Made by a program: the position numbers and the translations under genes. DNA of 64,000 nucleotides from Fimbriimonadaceae bacterium (lineage in GTDB: Bacteria > Armatimonadota > UBA10988), in the NCBI GenBank assembly GCA_020850355.1, contig JADZEX010000020.1, positions 1-64,000 on the forward strand. The letters run 5' to 3'. The notes below the pieces were generated by a model. That model was not told the origin of the DNA and ran no database searches. It saw nothing but the letters and a program-made list of their open reading frames with translations. Below, one piece after another: positions 46,819 through 54,972 of the stretch. Each line of letters opens with the position of its first letter. Positions within the stretch are counted from its first letter, which is position 1.

Positions 46819-47550
46819 TCAGCGCGGCATCCCTCCCGGTCGGGCCGTGAAGACCAGCCGCGGGGCGCCTGACTGGTAGGGCGTGCCGGCGAAGTCGCTG
46901 GCCCAGTCGGCGAGTTGCCAGCCGCTCGACCGCAGCAGGCGCTGCAGCTCGCCGGCGTCGATCTGCCGGTAACGGTCGACGCAATGCACCGGCACCTGGC
47001 CGGGGCTGCCGAAGGTGGTCACCTCCAGCAGGTCCTCGGCCTCCAGCGCCCAGTGCACCGTGGCGGTCACCGACCGCCCGGCCTGCACCACCGGCGGCAG
47101 CTCCAGCGGCGCGGGCAGGCCCGCCGCGGGCAGCGTCAGATCGCCGGCCAGCAGGCCTCCCGGCAGCAGCCGGGCGGCGGCCCAGGCGAGGAACTGCCGC
47201 TGCTCGCCGGTCGACCGCAGTAGCCGCAGGGCGTCCAGCGGCAGGGCCAGCAGGCCCACCTGCCGGTCCAGCGCCGGGGCCTGCAGGGAGGCCTGCCACA
47301 ACCGCGCCCGGGGCACCCGGCGGCGCGCGATGTGCAGCAGCGGCCGGGCCAGGTCCCAGCCGTAGAGCGGCTGCGCGAGGTCGTCGAGAACCGCCAGCAG
47401 ACGCCCGCCACCGCAGGCCGGCTCGGCCACCGGGCCGCCGCAACGCAACGCCAGGCGCCGGTAGTGGGCCGCCTCACCCTCGCGCAGGAGCTGCCCGTAG
47501 AGGCGCTCCCAGTGCCAGCCGAACTCCTCGTAGCGCCGCCCGGCAGTCAC
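46819..47550 (-). CDS. SAM-dependent methyltransferase
   Basis: This 243-residue protein starts at a GTG (47550) overlapping the stop of the upstream gene (GTGA). The SAM-binding motif I is VAEPACGGGRLLAVL, followed by the acidic-strand GWDLARPLL and a motif IV-like LLALPLDALRL. The second half has a beta region found in several class I methyltransferases (VHWALEAEDLLEVTTFG, then HCVDRYRQIDAGELQRLL). Substrate is unknown. The gene sits between a secreted glycosidase-like gene and the APH kinase on the same strand. Confidence 0.82.
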   Translation of the reverse strand: MTAGRRYEEFGWHWERLYGQLLREGEAAHYRRLALRCGGPVAEPACGGGRLLAVLDDLAQPLYGWDLARPLLHIARRRVPRARLWQASLQAPALDRQVGLLALPLDALRLLRSTGEQRQFLAWAAARLLPGGLLAGDLTLPAAGLPAPLELPPVVQAGRSVTATVHWALEAEDLLEVTTFGSPGQVPVHCVDRYRQIDAGELQRLLRSSGWQLADWASDFAGTPYQSGAPRLVFTARPGGMPR

Positions 47551-50078
47551 CGCGGCGGCGCCAGCAGCGCGATCACCACGGTCTGCCAGGGCGCCAGGCT
47601 CACCGTTCGCGGCGCCTCGGCATGACCCAGCACCGTGGCGTCGAAGGTCACCGTCGCAGTCGCCGTGGCGGCGCTGTTGTTGTGGACCGTGAAGTAGATC
47701 CGGCCAGTCTTGCCCGGCCCGAAGCGCTCGACGCTGATGGCGGCCGGCGCGACGCGGGCCCCGGTCACCGGCTGCCAGCCTTCTTCGGCAACCTGCCGGA
47801 TCTGCGGGATCCACTTGCGGAACGCCGCGCGGTCGCGGTTGTACCACTCCGGCTTGGTGAAGTAATGGTCCTCGGCGGCGTTGTGGCTGAACATCGACGG
47901 CAACATGCCGTAGGCCAGGGCTCGCTGGAAGTACCGCTCGACGAAGGGCCCGAAGTCGGCGAAGCTGGTGTTCTGCAGCAGCAGGTACGGCCGGGCGCCG
48001 CAGAGGCTGCGCTTGAAGCGCAGCGAGGCGTCGTCGTCGGGGCGGTACTGGCCCTCCCAAAGCCAGTTGGTTTCGGTCCCCATGATGTCGAAGTGGGCCG
48101 TCATGAAGCAGTAGCGGTGCGGCACGGCATTGGCGAACATCAGCTTGCCCAGCCCGTGCACGTCACGCGCCATCTGGTCGGCAAACTCGTTGATCGAGAA
48201 GGCCTTGTGCAGCACCGGGCGGTGGTCTTCGGTGGTGAAGGAGAGCGGTACGCTGGTGGCGGCCAGGTGCGCGGGCCGGAAGTTGAGCGCCGCGGTGACG
48301 TAGCCTTCGAGGCTGTCGAGGTACTCGCCATCGAGCGCTGGGCTGGTGCCCGGCCGATAGGCCGCCTTGGCAGCGTCGTTCCAGGCCAGGCGCGCCTGAC
48401 AGGGACCGTCGAGGTAGGGCGAGGGGTTCAGGCTGAACACCGCGCCGTTGCACCAGGGCTGGTTCTCGAAGCGCAGTTGCAGGTTGCCGGCCCGGTCGTG
48501 CATGCCCCCCTCGAGCGTCGCCTGCGCCCACTCGCGCGAGCGCGACTGCGGATCCGCCGCCTGCTTCTGGAGCAGCTCCAGCGCATTCGGGATGGTCCGC
48601 GGCAGGTCGGGCGGCATGCTCATCCAGTAGGTGCCCATCTCCGAGTAGCGGAACGTCAGCAGCCCGTGAGCCTCGTCCCAGGCTGTTTCGTCGTGGCCTT
48701 CCTTGAACTTGAACCCGAAGTCCTCCCAGCCCTGCACCAGGCTGGTCTTGGCAAAGGCCTGCCAGATGCCCTGGTCGGGCGTGCGGACCTGGTAGACCTC
48801 CGGCAGGATCTGCTGGTACCGTGCCAGGGCGCTGCGAAAGCCCCAGGCGGAGTCGCTCGGGAAGACCAGGATCCGGAACGGCGCCCGGCTCGGGAAGCGC
48901 TTCGTGATCGGAGTCAGCGCAAAGTCAGCCGAGAGGGTCAGCAGCTCCAACCCGGCCTGGTAGCCGGTGCGGAAGTGGTACGGCCGCTGCAGGTCGATCC
49001 CGATGTTGACCCCACCGGCCGGGCCGCTGACGTTGGCGAAGGGGTACATCGCCAGTTGGCCATTGGCGCCACACTCGATGCTCAACAGGTTGCTGTAGCT
49101 GCCGCGCCCGCTGATGGGCGTGTCGGTGGCGATGTCGGCGCCCCAGCGCAGGCCGGCGGCGCGTACCGGCAGGGCCAGCAGCAGCGTCACGGCCCGCTCG
49201 CCGCCGCGCAGATCACGCAACTCGCCGTCGATGGTCAGGTGAGTCGGCGCGGCGGTGACCTGGGTCGTCAGTTGCAGCCCCAGCTCGGCGCAGGTGCCGC
49301 CGGTGAAGTCGTGGTAGCCGCTGTCGGCCGCGACATCGCGGACCAGGAAGCCCGCCGCGGAGGTGCTCGCCTGGCTGCTGCCGCCGAGGCTGAGGCCGGT
49401 GACCCGTTGGTCCTGCAGCCGAACGCTCAACGGGCCGGCGCTGTGGCTGCTGCCGCCACTGGGGCCGGCTCCGCCGACGGGCTTCACCGCCACCCCATCG
49501 AGCAGCGCGGCGCCATCGGCGACGGTCAGCTCGGCCAGGCTGAAGTCATCGAACCAGACCTCGCCGGTATGTCCGCGGAACAGCCCGTAGACGCTGACGC
49601 TGCGGATCGGCCTGGCCGCTGTGATCAGCACCTGCCGCCGCTGCCAGCCGTGCGTGCCCACCTCGAAGGAGCTGATCTGCCCCCACAGCGGCGTGCCGTC
49701 GGTGAAGGTGAGATCGCAGTAAATGCTATAGTCGACATCGGCCGCGCCGCTGACGCCAACCGCCCGGCTCCAGCCGCTGACCGCCACCGGCAGGGGCTCG
49801 GTTTGGTTCAGAGTGACCACCTGCAGCACCCCGGCCCCGGGCCCGGCGGCGTCCGGGCGGACACAACGGGCGGCGTCGCCACCCTCGCGGCCCGCGCCGA
49901 CGGCCGCCGTGTAGCCGCCCTGGTAGGCGCCCCAACTGTCGATCCGCCCGTCGGCGGCGTTGAAGCCGGGGTTGGCCAGCTTGTTCAGTGCCGTGCTGTT
50001 GAAGCGCGCGTAGACCTCCGCGGCGGGCAGCGCCGACAGGGTCAGCGCAGCACACAGGGCAACGAACCAGGACCGCAT
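47547..50078 (-). CDS. Secreted multidomain glycosidase-like protein
   Basis: This 843-residue protein has a signal peptide (MRSWFVALCAALTLSALPAA). Residues about 30-185 form a carbohydrate-binding-module-like beta-sandwich (LANPGFNAADGRIDSWG, ending EVWFDDFSLAELTV). A galactose-mutarotase-like or super-sandwich region spans about 200-400. The C-terminal part (about 400-770) looks like a TIM barrel, with SPALDGEYLDSLEGY, LSFTTEDHRPVLHK and MGTETNWLWEG, each carrying acidic residues that could be catalytic. The last 70 residues are a beta domain. I cannot name a GH family. The 3' end overlaps the methyltransferase start. Confidence 0.75.
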   Translation of the reverse strand: MRSWFVALCAALTLSALPAAEVYARFNSTALNKLANPGFNAADGRIDSWGAYQGGYTAAVGAGREGGDAARCVRPDAAGPGAGVLQVVTLNQTEPLPVAVSGWSRAVGVSGAADVDYSIYCDLTFTDGTPLWGQISSFEVGTHGWQRRQVLITAARPIRSVSVYGLFRGHTGEVWFDDFSLAELTVADGAALLDGVAVKPVGGAGPSGGSSHSAGPLSVRLQDQRVTGLSLGGSSQASTSAAGFLVRDVAADSGYHDFTGGTCAELGLQLTTQVTAAPTHLTIDGELRDLRGGERAVTLLLALPVRAAGLRWGADIATDTPISGRGSYSNLLSIECGANGQLAMYPFANVSGPAGGVNIGIDLQRPYHFRTGYQAGLELLTLSADFALTPITKRFPSRAPFRILVFPSDSAWGFRSALARYQQILPEVYQVRTPDQGIWQAFAKTSLVQGWEDFGFKFKEGHDETAWDEAHGLLTFRYSEMGTYWMSMPPDLPRTIPNALELLQKQAADPQSRSREWAQATLEGGMHDRAGNLQLRFENQPWCNGAVFSLNPSPYLDGPCQARLAWNDAAKAAYRPGTSPALDGEYLDSLEGYVTAALNFRPAHLAATSVPLSFTTEDHRPVLHKAFSINEFADQMARDVHGLGKLMFANAVPHRYCFMTAHFDIMGTETNWLWEGQYRPDDDASLRFKRSLCGARPYLLLQNTSFADFGPFVERYFQRALAYGMLPSMFSHNAAEDHYFTKPEWYNRDRAAFRKWIPQIRQVAEEGWQPVTGARVAPAAISVERFGPGKTGRIYFTVHNNSAATATATVTFDATVLGHAEAPRTVSLAPWQTVVIALLAPPR

Positions 50079-50123
50079 GGTGCTCTCCACCGGCAGCTTC
50101 GCCAGACCGGCCCGACTCCTGCC

Positions 50124-50777
50124 TCAGCGGTTGCGACGCAGCGCCCAGAGGTCGGGGGCCTCGGCCTGCAGACGGCCCGCGGCGGCGTGCAGTTCCGCGG
50201 CGGTGAGCTGGTCCAACGAACCGCGGTCCTCCCACAGCTCGTAGGCCAACCGGATGGTCAACTCCACATTGCCGGCGCTGAGCTGCCGCCACTGCCGCAG
50301 CACGGCCGGGTCCCAGGGCGTGCGGTGCGGCTGCCCGGCCCGCAGCAGGTAGCTCCCCAGCAAGCTGGCCAGCGCGGCGGCGTCGCCCAGACCGGGCAGC
50401 CGCCAGGTCACCACACCGGCCAGGAACCAGTGCCGCCGATGGGTCGCACAGGCCAGCCCCAGCCCGGCGCTGCGGGCTTGCGCCAGCAGGCCGCGCACGG
50501 TGCGATCGGGCAGCAGTTGGGTCTCGTCAAGCAGCCACCAGCCACTGCGCGGCGGCGCCGGCGGGGGCTGCTGGGGATCCAGGCGATGGTAGGCCGCGGG
50601 CTGCCCGCTGGCGGTCGCCCAGCGCTGCAGCGCCAGCAGGTGGGTGGTCTTGCCGAGCCCCGAACCACCGACGATCTGCACCGCGCGGCAGCCCGCCACC
50701 AGCGCATTGACCAGACCCGCCGGCAGGCCGAAGTCGGCCGGCGGCCCGCCGGTCCAGATCTCGAAGGGGTTAGCCAC
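50124..50777 (-). CDS. Small P-loop ATPase (AAA/ExeA-like)
   Basis: This 217-residue protein starts at a GTG (50777) inside the end of the phosphoesterase gene. Walker A is IVGGSGLGKTTHLLAL and Walker B is GWWLLDETQLL. A C-terminal helical lid follows (LRQWRQLSAGNVELTIRLAYELWED). Composition and length resemble TniB/ExeA-type ATPases that move substrates or regulate other machines, but no transposon genes are present. Its function here is unknown. The tight overlap suggests translation with the upstream phosphoesterase. Confidence 0.75.
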   Translation of the reverse strand: MANPFEIWTGGPPADFGLPAGLVNALVAGCRAVQIVGGSGLGKTTHLLALQRWATASGQPAAYHRLDPQQPPPAPPRSGWWLLDETQLLPDRTVRGLLAQARSAGLGLACATHRRHWFLAGVVTWRLPGLGDAAALASLLGSYLLRAGQPHRTPWDPAVLRQWRQLSAGNVELTIRLAYELWEDRGSLDQLTAAELHAAAGRLQAEAPDLWALRRNR

Positions 50778-51696
50778 CGGCCGCTGGCGCCGCGACGGCG
50801 GCCGGCTGGCGGGCCGGCACCTCGAACTGGTCGACCTGCTGGCCGGTCTCGTCGATCGCCCGCACGGTCGCCCGATCACCCTCGACCTGCACCATCGTGA
50901 AGTGCAGCGTCTTCTTGAAGACGTCGCCTGGTTTGGCCTGGCTGGGGTCCTGGTCGTAGAGCGGCGCGCCGCCGCCGGCGGTGACCACGCACGGCAGGCC
51001 GTCGCGGATCGTCCGGTAGTAGCCGTGGTCGTGACCCGTGAAGACCGCCGACGGGCGGTACTTCAGCAGGATCGGCCAGAGCCGCCGCCGCACGGTCAGA
51101 TCGCCGGGGGCGTACTCGCCGATGGTGAACAGCGGATGGTGGACGATCACCCACACGAACGGCTCCTGGGCCGCCGCCAGCGTCTTCTTGAACCAGTCGA
51201 GCTGCGCCTGGTCTTCGCCCTCCAGCCGGAAGGTGTTGCTGTCCAGCACAACCACCCGGCTGCGCTGGACGGTGAAGGTGTAGTAGCAGCGCTCGCCGTG
51301 GACCGGCAGGTCTAGCTCCTCGGCGACGTTGCTGTTCTTGCGGTCGTGGTTGCCGATCGCCATGTAATAGGGCCCCAGCTTGCGAAGCGGGGCGATGATC
51401 TGGTACGCCTCCTGCCATTCGGCACGGTTCGACCCGTCGCCGCCGACCAGGTCGCCGGTCTGGAGCGTGAACTCCGGCGCCGCCTTGAGCATCTGCGCCA
51501 CCACCAGCTTGTGCTTCGCCGGACGCGAGCGGCAGTCGCCATAGACCGCGAAGCGTTGCGGTGGCGGCGGCGGGGGTGGCGGCGGCAGGGCGACGCTGCT
51601 GGCGCTGACCGCGTCGGGCCCCGGAGCAGTACGGCAGCCGGGCAAGAGGCCCGCGGCGAGCAGCACGACAGGCAGCAGACGGACGACGACTTTCAC
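50770..51696 (-). CDS. Lipoprotein metallophosphoesterase
   Basis: This 308-residue protein has a lipoprotein signal (LLPGC at residues 17-21) and a Pro-rich linker of about ten prolines. The calcineurin-like core has ligands in VYGDCRSRP, LQTGDLVGGDG, AIGNHDRKN, VHHPLF and TGHDHGYYR. It would face the periplasm, anchored to a membrane. Substrate is unknown; related proteins hydrolyse phosphodiesters or act like acid phosphatases. It overlaps the aminotransferase gene upstream by 4 bases and the ATPase gene downstream by 8. Confidence 0.9.
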   Translation of the reverse strand: MKVVVRLLPVVLLAAGLLPGCRTAPGPDAVSASSVALPPPPPPPPPQRFAVYGDCRSRPAKHKLVVAQMLKAAPEFTLQTGDLVGGDGSNRAEWQEAYQIIAPLRKLGPYYMAIGNHDRKNSNVAEELDLPVHGERCYYTFTVQRSRVVVLDSNTFRLEGEDQAQLDWFKKTLAAAQEPFVWVIVHHPLFTIGEYAPGDLTVRRRLWPILLKYRPSAVFTGHDHGYYRTIRDGLPCVVTAGGGAPLYDQDPSQAKPGDVFKKTLHFTMVQVEGDRATVRAIDETGQQVDQFEVPARQPAAVAAPAAGG

Positions 51697-52829
51697 GACT
51701 CCAGGCCCTCCAGGAAGCTCAACAGCCGCTCAATGGCCATGCCAAAGGCCCGCTCGCGTGCGGCCAGGCTGAGCCGCACGCAGCCCCGCGAGCGCTCGCC
51801 GAACCAACTGCCCGGTGCCAGGCGCAGGCCGGATTGCTGCAGGCAGGCGGCAGCGAAGTCGTCGCCGTCGGGCAGGGCCGTGCCGCTGATATCGAGCAGT
51901 GCCAGGAAACCGGCCTGCGGCGCCAGGGGCAGCAGACCCGGCGGCAACACGGCCTGCAGCGTGGCGGCCTGCTGGGCGAAGAACGACCGCATGCTCTCGA
52001 CCGCTTCGAGGTCCATCTCCAGCGCGGCCAGGCCGGCCGCCAGGGCGAGGCAACTGGGGCCCGCCAGGAAGGTCCGCTGGACATGATCGATGGCCAGCGC
52101 CACCGGCGGCGCGGCGACGGCGTAACCAAGCCGCAAGCCCGCCAGCGCGTGAGTCGTCGCGAAGCTGAACAGGCTGACCACCCGGCCGTCGGTATCGAAC
52201 CGGGCGGCGCCGATCGCGGGACCGGGCGCGTAACGCAGCAGATCGTAGGTCTCGTCGCTGATCAGGTAGAGGTCGTGCGCCCGGCACCAGTCCAGCAACT
52301 GCACCAGATCGTCGCACGACAGCACCGCGCCGGTGGGGTTGTGCGGGTGGCTGACGATCAGCGCTTTGGTGTCATGCCCGGCGAGCTCGTCGAGCGCCGC
52401 GTAGTCCGGCCGGCCATCGGGCCGCAGGGGGTACGCGACGACCTGCAGCCCCCAGCCGGCCGCCAGTTGCCGGAAGCCTGGCCAGCCTGGGTCCGGCACC
52501 AGCACGGCGTCGCCGGGATCGGTCAGCGCCGCCAGGACCCAGTTGCAGGCCATCGTGCCGCCCGCCGTGACGATCACCCGGTCCGGACTGACTTCGAGCT
52601 GGTTGCACTCCTCCAGCTTGGCCACCAGGGCCTCGCGCAGCGGCCGCCCGCCGGCCGCCGTCGAACGGCCCAGGTCGGTCTGCTGGGCGGCATGCACCAC
52701 GGCTTCGGCGACTGGACCAGGGACCGTGTAGTGCGACAGATCCCCGGAGAGGTCGATCTCCTCGACCACCGCCGGATGCGGCAGCGGTGCCAACTGCACC
52801 GCGCCGCGCGTGCTCGAGAGGCTCTTCAT
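51693..52829 (-). CDS. Class I/II aminotransferase-fold protein lacking the PLP lysine
   Basis: This 378-residue fold-type I PLP protein conserves GRPLREALVAKL, the phosphate-cup TAGGTMACNW, HPHNPTG (N164), ISDETYD (D192 and Y195), AGLRLGY (R233) and a carboxylate-binding Arg in RGCVRLSLA. In family members the Schiff-base lysine lies in 'SxSKTHAxAG'; here the stretch is SFATTHALAG, with Thr at position 225 in its place. The protein is therefore not an ordinary aminotransferase. It may catalyse lysine-independent PLP chemistry or bind PLP non-covalently, or be regulatory. It is the first gene of a run of three overlapping genes. Confidence 0.88.
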   Translation of the reverse strand: MKSLSSTRGAVQLAPLPHPAVVEEIDLSGDLSHYTVPGPVAEAVVHAAQQTDLGRSTAAGGRPLREALVAKLEECNQLEVSPDRVIVTAGGTMACNWVLAALTDPGDAVLVPDPGWPGFRQLAAGWGLQVVAYPLRPDGRPDYAALDELAGHDTKALIVSHPHNPTGAVLSCDDLVQLLDWCRAHDLYLISDETYDLLRYAPGPAIGAARFDTDGRVVSLFSFATTHALAGLRLGYAVAAPPVALAIDHVQRTFLAGPSCLALAAGLAALEMDLEAVESMRSFFAQQAATLQAVLPPGLLPLAPQAGFLALLDISGTALPDGDDFAAACLQQSGLRLAPGSWFGERSRGCVRLSLAARERAFGMAIERLLSFLEGLES

Positions 52830-52943
52830 GGCACTTTCCAGACTAGCCGCCGGGCGGCCGGGTCAACTACCACTCCACCAACCTGGCCCTTGGCGCCAAC
52901 GCCCGATGGACGCACAATGCCTGGCAGGCGCCGGAGGCCTGCG

Positions 52944-53447
52944 ATGCCCGAGTTCATGCCCTGTCCCCATTGTGGCGCGGAGCTGGTGCTCCGCACCGGG
53001 CGGGTGCCGGCGGGCGCGTTGTGCCCCGTCTGCCACAAACCGCTCCAACCGGCCGCCGCCCCCGCACCCGCCGCGCCCACCGCGCGCAAGGTCCTGGTTG
53101 TCGAGGATGATGACGCCACGCTGGCGATTCTGACCACCACGCTGAAGTCCGGCGGTTGGCAGGTCGTCTGTGCCGGCGACTCGGTGACCGCCCTGCAGAT
53201 GGCCCGCCGCGAACGGCCGGACGTGATCGTCCTCGACCTCGGCCTCCCCGGCGGCGACGGCTTCGGCGTGATGCAGCGCCTGGCCCACCTCAACCCCGTG
53301 AAGCTGATTCCCGTCGTGGTGGTCACCGCCAAGGACCCCGCCGAGGTGCTTTCGAAATCCCGCGAGGCCGGCGCCCGCGCCTTCCTGCGCAAGCCAGTGC
53401 GGCCCGCCGAGCTGCTGCAGACCGTCGCGCGAGTCGCCGCTGGCTGA
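52944..53447 (+). CDS. Zinc-ribbon single-domain response regulator
   Basis: This 167-residue protein starts at ATG 52944 with GGAGG (52933-52937) six bases upstream. Residues 7-33 form a zinc ribbon with two Cys pairs (CPHCGAELV and CPVCHKPL). After an Ala/Pro linker comes a receiver domain (about 48-165) with acidic pocket VVEDDDATL, phospho-Asp in IVLDLGLPGGDGF, Thr in VVTAKD and Lys in FLRKPVRP. There is no output domain, so it probably signals by protein contact. It is followed 58 bases later by a chemoreceptor on the same strand. Confidence 0.9.
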   Translation: MPEFMPCPHCGAELVLRTGRVPAGALCPVCHKPLQPAAAPAPAAPTARKVLVVEDDDATLAILTTTLKSGGWQVVCAGDSVTALQMARRERPDVIVLDLGLPGGDGFGVMQRLAHLNPVKLIPVVVVTAKDPAEVLSKSREAGARAFLRKPVRPAELLQTVARVAAG

Positions 53448-53505
53448 CCTCAGCGTCACGCCGCCGCCCGCCCCGACCGCTTCAGAACTCCACTGCTAAG
53501 TCGAT

Positions 53506-54972
53506 ATGCCCATCCAGATCGACACCTTCAAGGGTGTGGTGGAGGTTCAGATGACCACGACTACTCGGCTGCGGCTGACGGCGGTGGTGCCGGCGGTGGT
53601 GATCGCCGGCATGTTGCTGACCACCTGGCGGGTGACCAGCGCGCAGAAGCTGGACGCCCTCAGCATCAACCTGGCCGGGCGCCAGCGGATGCTGCTGCAG
53701 AAGATGACTCGCGAGGCCGCCGGGGCGGCTCTGGCGACCGCACCGGCCGCCCGTGACAAGGCCGCTGCCGCCTCGGGCAACAGCGCCGAGGTCTTCGACA
53801 AGACCCTGGTCGCCCTGGCCGATGGGGGTCGGGCTCCGCTGGATCTGAACCTCAGCAAGACCGCCTGGCGGGAGCTGCCACCGTCGCGCGGCAGCGCGCA
53901 GCAGGCCTGGGGTAAGGTCAAAGGCTCCTGGCAGACCTATCGCCCGCAACTGACCGCCGCCACCGCGGGCGCGGGCGACCGCGCGGCCCTGGCCGGCTGC
54001 CTGCAAGGGTGTGACGCGCTGGTCGGGGAGGTCTCCGCCGCCGTCAGCGCGCTGCAGGCCCAGAGCGAACAGCGGGTGCGGCTGCTGCTGCTCTGTCAGT
54101 TGATCGGCCTGATCCTCGGCGCGGCGGCGCTGGCGTTCAGCCTCGGCACCGTGAAGTCGATTGTGGCGACGCTGGAAACCGTGATCGCCGGGCTGCAGGC
54201 CAGTGCCAGCGAAGTGGCCGCGGCCTCCGGTGAGCTGACCGCGGCCAGCGAGAAGCTGGCCTTCGACTCGACCGCCCAGGCGGCCGATCTAGAAGAGACC
54301 ACCGCGTCGATGGAAGTCCTTTCGAGCACCACCCGGGAGAACTCCGCCCGCGCCGAGCAAGCCCGCCGCGTGGCCGACAACGCCCGCGAGGTCGCTGCCG
54401 CCGGCGAGGCCGCGCGGGACGCTCTCGACACCGCGGTGGCCGGCATCCAGGACGCCAGCGACGAGACCGCCCGGGCCCTGCGGGGGATCAACGAGATCGC
54501 CTTCCAGACCAACCTGCTGGCGCTCAACGCGGCTGTCGAGGCGGCCCGCGCCGGCGACGCCGGCCGTGGCTTTGCGGTGGTCGCCGAGGAAGTCCGCCGG
54601 CTGGCTCAGCGCTGCGGCGAAGCGGCCCGCAACACGGCGGCCCTGATCGAGCTGTCGCAGGCCAATGCCAAATCGGGCCAGACCGCCGCCGGCAAGGTTG
54701 GCGAGGTGCTGCGCGGCCTGGCCGAACAGATCGACGCGGTGCGCGGGCTGGTGGTCGAGGTCGCCGCCGCCAACCACGAGCAGGCCGGCGGGATCGCCCA
54801 GACCAACGCGGCCGTGGCGACGGTGGCCCAACGGACTCAGGAAGCAGCCGCGACCGCCCAGGAGACCGCCGCCTCGTCGCATGAGCTGTCGGCGCAGGCG
54901 ACAGCGCTGCAAGGCGCGGTCGACGATCTCCGCGGCATGATCGGCACGCCGAGCCTGGCAGAATCCGTGTAG
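53506..54972 (+). CDS. Methyl-accepting chemotaxis-like protein with PilJ-type sensor
   Basis: This protein of up to 488 residues has TM1 at about 22-38 ([18 protein letters not shown]). The periplasmic region has the PilJ/NarX-type motif [20 protein letters not shown] (about 53-72), and TM2 is about 193-213 ([19 protein letters not shown]). The signalling coiled coil has its hairpin tip [20 protein letters not shown] and [19 protein letters not shown]. No HAMP domain is apparent between TM2 and the coiled coil. ATG 53551 (MTTTTRLRL) may be the true start. No che genes occur in the window. Confidence 0.9.

Follow-up and report, generated by a model that had tools for sequence, protein, structure and literature searches.

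Is a protein with the fold of a PLP-dependent aminotransferase, and a threonine where the cofactor-linking lysine should be, a new kind of enzyme, a damaged one, or a protein kept for another role? The question is raised by a gene at 51693..52829 on the minus strand of a 64,000-nucleotide stretch of DNA, hereafter the window, from a Fimbriimonadaceae bacterium. From its translation and its match to Pfam Aminotran_1_2, we assign the product (P0002, 378 aa) as a class I/II aminotransferase-like protein. The GC content at the three codon positions of the open reading frame (0.75, 0.51 and 0.89) fits a real gene.

Family assignment of the lysine-less protein

The window protein matches PF00155 with 166.6 bits (E 1.2e-48, cut-off 19.7), a homology that extends across the whole domain, compared with a weak 21.2 bits for PF01041, the DegT/DnrJ/EryC1/StrS family. 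Its closest solved structures are the Thermus thermophilus AspAT (1b5p) and a Pyrococcus aromatic aminotransferase (1dju), and the match to this subgroup is near full-length (E 2.6e-36 with the single protein, 1.6e-49 with a profile). Asp222, Arg266, Arg386 and NPTG are common to both, but unlike the members of the subgroup, the window protein has no Schiff-base Lys, carries Arg at the Tyr70* position and lacks GxPDF. Predicted structures were of low confidence (mean pLDDT 62 and 58, from shallow alignments), and a Foldseek search with the first of these models (mean pLDDT 62) matched class I aminotransferases at a TM score of only about 0.5.

The top NCBIfam model is NF041364 (GntC, (S)-gamma-hydroxy-L-arginine cyclodehydratase), which scores 196 bits on the window protein and matches all three members (3/3) of the orthologous lineage described below. 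A GntC identity is not supported, as 196 bits is far under the curated cut-off of 415. TIGR03947 (VioD, capreomycidine synthase) is also near, with a score far under its own curated cut-off of 390.9 bits, and no arginine-derived natural product genes were recognised in the neighbourhood of the gene.

Losses in the cofactor site of the window protein

A first-pass annotation of this DNA had described an aminotransferase-like protein without the PLP-linking lysine, in which SFATTHALAG carries Thr225 in its place, and both statements hold. The codons AGC TTC GCG ACG ACT CAC encode S F A T T H, and the position of the Schiff-base lysine (K258 of E. coli AspAT) falls on the ACG codon (52155..52157, read on the minus strand from 52157 to 52155). 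As a comparison set we used 52 aligned homologues, four of them taken from genome-contig records and the others from the window genome or elsewhere in its phylum. Because the column is Lys in 52/52 of these homologues, Thr225 is not chance variation within the family. The window protein contains three lysines only (2, 71 and 155). A relocated catalytic lysine was considered and rejected: Lys71 and Lys155 are common in ordinary homologues, and no substitute is apparent.

It had also been claimed that all other family motifs are intact. This is correct for NPTG, SDETYD, AGLRLGY and the C-terminal Arg (R352), but not for several other positions. Arg55 (52665..52667, minus strand) occupies the Tyr70* position, a contact to the PLP phosphate from the other subunit that is Tyr in 51/52 homologues. 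Ala224 precedes Thr225 where 52/52 homologues have Ser, the N-terminal GxPDF motif is gone, and Q263 and R287 (present in 51/52 and 50/52 homologues, respectively) are replaced. The contacts that vary elsewhere in the lineage are intact in the window protein, namely the ring-stacking aromatic Trp116 (W140 of AspAT, 52482..52484) and the O3' contacts Asn164 of NPTG (N194, 52338..52340) and Tyr195 (Y225, 52245..52247), all on the minus strand. On the same strand lie Asp192 (D222, pyridine nitrogen, 52254..52256), Arg233 (R266, phosphate, 52131..52133) and Arg352 (R386, substrate carboxylate, 51774..51776). We take these residue roles from the alignment with AspAT and from established knowledge of that enzyme. 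The first-pass annotation proposed a chemistry different from that of an ordinary aminotransferase; the part of this proposal that holds an ordinary aminotransferase to be unlikely is supported.

The site is labile among orthologues

The search for orthologues covered 291 genomes of the phylum and was afterwards widened to 397 genomes in total. Only two close orthologues were found among the 397, in genomes G002 (54% identity) and G003 (49% identity), both of the same bacterial family as the window genome. The lineage was seen in three genera of one family (the window genome, G002 and G003), each represented by a fragmented assembly. The next match (G015) is 35% identical, bears Lys and is canonical at the contacts. 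Scanning viral contigs with the orthologue alignment found no relatives, and the scan of genome contigs found only distant ones, with Lys wherever position 225 was covered. G001, a genome that is 93% complete and placed in the genus of G003, is apparently without the aminotransferase-like gene, as no match to the orthologue profile was seen at E 1e-50.

Position 225 is Thr, Lys and Arg in the window genome, G002 and G003, respectively. The Arg codon of G003 is CGC, and because this is at least two substitutions from either lysine codon (AAA or AAG), the Arg is not a single-base error. G002 retains the lysine, but its Asn194 is replaced by Leu, its Tyr225 by Cys and its ring-stacking aromatic by Met (AspAT numbering); the same three positions are Asp, Thr and Pro in G003. 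Among the homologues, the corresponding window positions 164, 195 and 116 are conserved in 52/52, 51/52 and 52/52 (as an aromatic). All three orthologues share Arg55 (3/3), Ala224, the loss of GxPDF and Leu/Ile at 263, and all three keep Asp192, Arg233 and Arg352 (3/3 each). His227 is likewise invariant in the three, and His at K+2 occurs in 4/52 Lys-bearing homologues too. Within columns at least 96% conserved in the homologues, 11/24 cells are changed at PLP/substrate contacts and 16/72 at other positions, a comparison that is descriptive, since the homologues served to select the columns and the counts are low.

In the tree, the window protein groups with G002 at weak support (85/54), and a long stem branch of length 1.41 leads to the three orthologues. 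With a Lys-bearing outgroup, Thr and Arg at position 225 would have arisen separately on this tree, and any other arrangement of the three orthologues also requires at least two changes there. Conservation of Thr among relatives, which the first-pass annotation suggested checking, is absent, with Lys in G002 and Arg in G003, and a conserved Thr acting as a new catalytic residue was rejected for this reason. The same annotation drew a parallel with lysine-less sugar dehydratases, which the Thr/Lys/Arg variation and the membership in Aminotran_1_2 do not support. It took Lys in close relatives as a sign of a private mutation, and the closest relative does have Lys, but the next has Arg and all of the orthologues show further active-site losses. 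Because of this combination, the pattern is neither a conserved new catalytic design nor a simple private mutation within an otherwise intact enzyme family.

The gene is maintained in a conserved context

The aminotransferase-like gene is followed by a gene for a calcineurin-like metallophosphoesterase (50770..51696, minus strand; Pfam PF00149 and synteny), a probable lipoprotein, whose GTG start overlaps the aminotransferase stop by four bases (GTGA). The same pair overlaps via ATGA in G002, and a four-base overlap is thus found in two genera. Three genes downstream of the aminotransferase-like gene lies a gene for an 847-aa probable secreted protein (47547..50090, minus strand), whose orthologue in G003 adjoins the aminotransferase-like gene directly downstream. 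The gene therefore sits in an old operon context, which counts against its being a dead gene.

The frames of the orthologues are open and of similar length, at 49-54% identity. As controls, we took a canonical aminotransferase and HisC of this bacterial family. Wherever G001, G002 or G003 encodes them, they kept their SK and NP(T/A)G motifs and shared 62-69% identity with their counterparts in the window genome, making the lysine-less protein less conserved than the control aminotransferases. Crude dN/dS values among the orthologues were 0.48-0.89, a poor gauge of constraint here, as strong GC3/codon bias shrinks dS. Because the frames are intact and the context is kept, we do not regard the gene as a decayed pseudogene. 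Catalytic residues have been lost while an open frame persists across genera, as would be expected of a PLP-fold pseudoenzyme.

A probably eroding PLP site and its alternatives

Our preferred interpretation, to which we give a probability of roughly 55%, is that the window protein is a degenerate fold type I (class I/II) protein of a small lineage, in which the PLP site has been lost piecemeal and the protein persists as a pseudoenzyme or ligand binder instead of founding a new class of lysine-free enzymes. The window protein is probably no longer an ordinary aminotransferase and probably still kept by the cell. As all three orthologues share Arg in place of Tyr70*, Ala in place of Ser and the loss of GxPDF, we infer that these changes arose on the lineage stem before the others, and they may have relaxed the demand for transamination. 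Each branch would afterwards have lost different residues, whether the lysine, the O3' contacts or the stacking aromatic, while the protein was kept for a role that needs no Schiff base. That role would most likely be to bind a ligand bearing a phosphate or carboxylate group, perhaps free PLP or PMP, for which the basic and acidic residues common to all three orthologues could still serve. The role might instead be a structural or regulatory role with the operon partners, the metallophosphoesterase lipoprotein and the large secreted protein.

Several points count against erosion of the site: only three orthologues are available; among the varying contacts the window protein has lost the lysine alone, in addition to the shared Tyr70* and Ser changes; and the G002 protein, with its lysine kept, could be active. 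Tentatively, and at distinctly lower odds, we also consider a protein of this fold that would bind PLP, PMP or another phosphorylated ligand non-covalently, acting or sensing on behalf of the phosphoesterase and secreted-protein operon, with the lysine freely exchangeable (Thr/Lys/Arg) between genera.

Three other explanations are each less well supported than erosion of the site. Thr225 could be a mutation private to this genome, or an error in the consensus of a single assembly, the gene otherwise encoding a PLP enzyme of unspecified specificity. ACG is one base from AAG, the closest orthologue (G002) has Lys, and the window protein has Trp116, Asn164, Tyr195, Asp192, Arg233 and Arg352 all in place. 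However, the independent Arg (CGC) of G003 and the further losses in both orthologues mark the site as labile in the family, and the window protein itself carries Arg55 and Ala224 as well, making this explanation improbable, if the best placed of the three.

Less probable again is that the protein binds PLP or PMP without a lysine for a new reaction, in the manner of ColD and the E1 sugar dehydratases. ColD and the CDP-6-deoxy-glucoseen E1 sugar dehydratases are lysine-less fold type I proteins of the DegT/DnrJ family with a conserved His at the Lys position. The retention of the phosphate (Arg233), pyridine (Asp192) and substrate (Arg352) contacts in all three orthologues, together with the invariant His227, would agree with such a reaction. 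The window lineage nevertheless departs from these dehydratases on both counts, with Thr, Lys or Arg rather than His and a class I/II rather than a DegT/DnrJ affiliation, its match to the DegT family being weak. A shared catalytic design would hardly permit the variation at position 225, at the O3' contacts and at the ring-stacking residue, and the His at K+2 is not peculiar to the lineage.

Other proteins combine a PLP-enzyme fold with the absence of the catalytic lysine, as the window protein does. A survey excluded AZIN1, AZIN2, SPTLC1 and PDXDC1 because they lack the PLP lysine (PMC11016064), and SPTLC1, a fold type I protein without this lysine, works with SPTLC2 (PMC3794620). These proteins belong to different families, and SPTLC1 is heterodimeric whereas the window gene has no linked partner gene. 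The least probable of the three explanations pairs the window protein, as a subunit without catalytic function, with a Lys-bearing aminotransferase in a heterodimer. In fold type I enzymes the active sites lie where the two subunits meet, SPTLC1/LCB1 offers a precedent (PMC3794620), and the genome encodes five Lys-bearing relatives. These paralogues are only 28-32% identical, however, and thus include no obvious duplicate partner, and the 260-kb contig carrying the window yielded no further aminotransferase-like gene, although an unlinked partner may exist.

If the site is indeed eroding, the three orthologues are seemingly at different stages of PLP-site loss, one with the lysine in place and other contacts gone. 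They may therefore form a natural series for studying the order in which cofactor contacts are lost and the function for which the protein is retained. The case also advises caution where genes of this kind are annotated automatically as aminotransferases. To our knowledge, prokaryotic pseudoenzymes derived from class I/II aminotransferases have seldom been described, and the literature searched contained nothing specific on lysine-less class I/II aminotransferases.

Other genes of the locus

Between the phosphoesterase gene and the gene for the 847-aa protein sits an ATPase-like ORF (50124..50879, minus strand), with the P-loop GGSGLGKTT in its sequence and a start that is probably near 50777. 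Searches of Pfam and NCBIfam gave no match for this ORF, and none for the 847-aa probable secreted protein. Stretches matching the 847-aa protein number 10 in G000, 19 in G002 and 9 in G004, which suggests that it belongs to an expanded uncharacterised family of secreted proteins in this class.

The phosphoesterase orthologue of G002 (L041, G002:C602, 6153-6876) appears broken: its two parts are read in different frames, and about 46 residues that should separate them are absent; this may be either an assembly error or a real loss. On the plus strand at 52905-54972, a divergently oriented response regulator, whose N-terminus carries a zinc-ribbon-like CxxC...CxxC segment, precedes a PilJ-type methyl-accepting chemotaxis protein.
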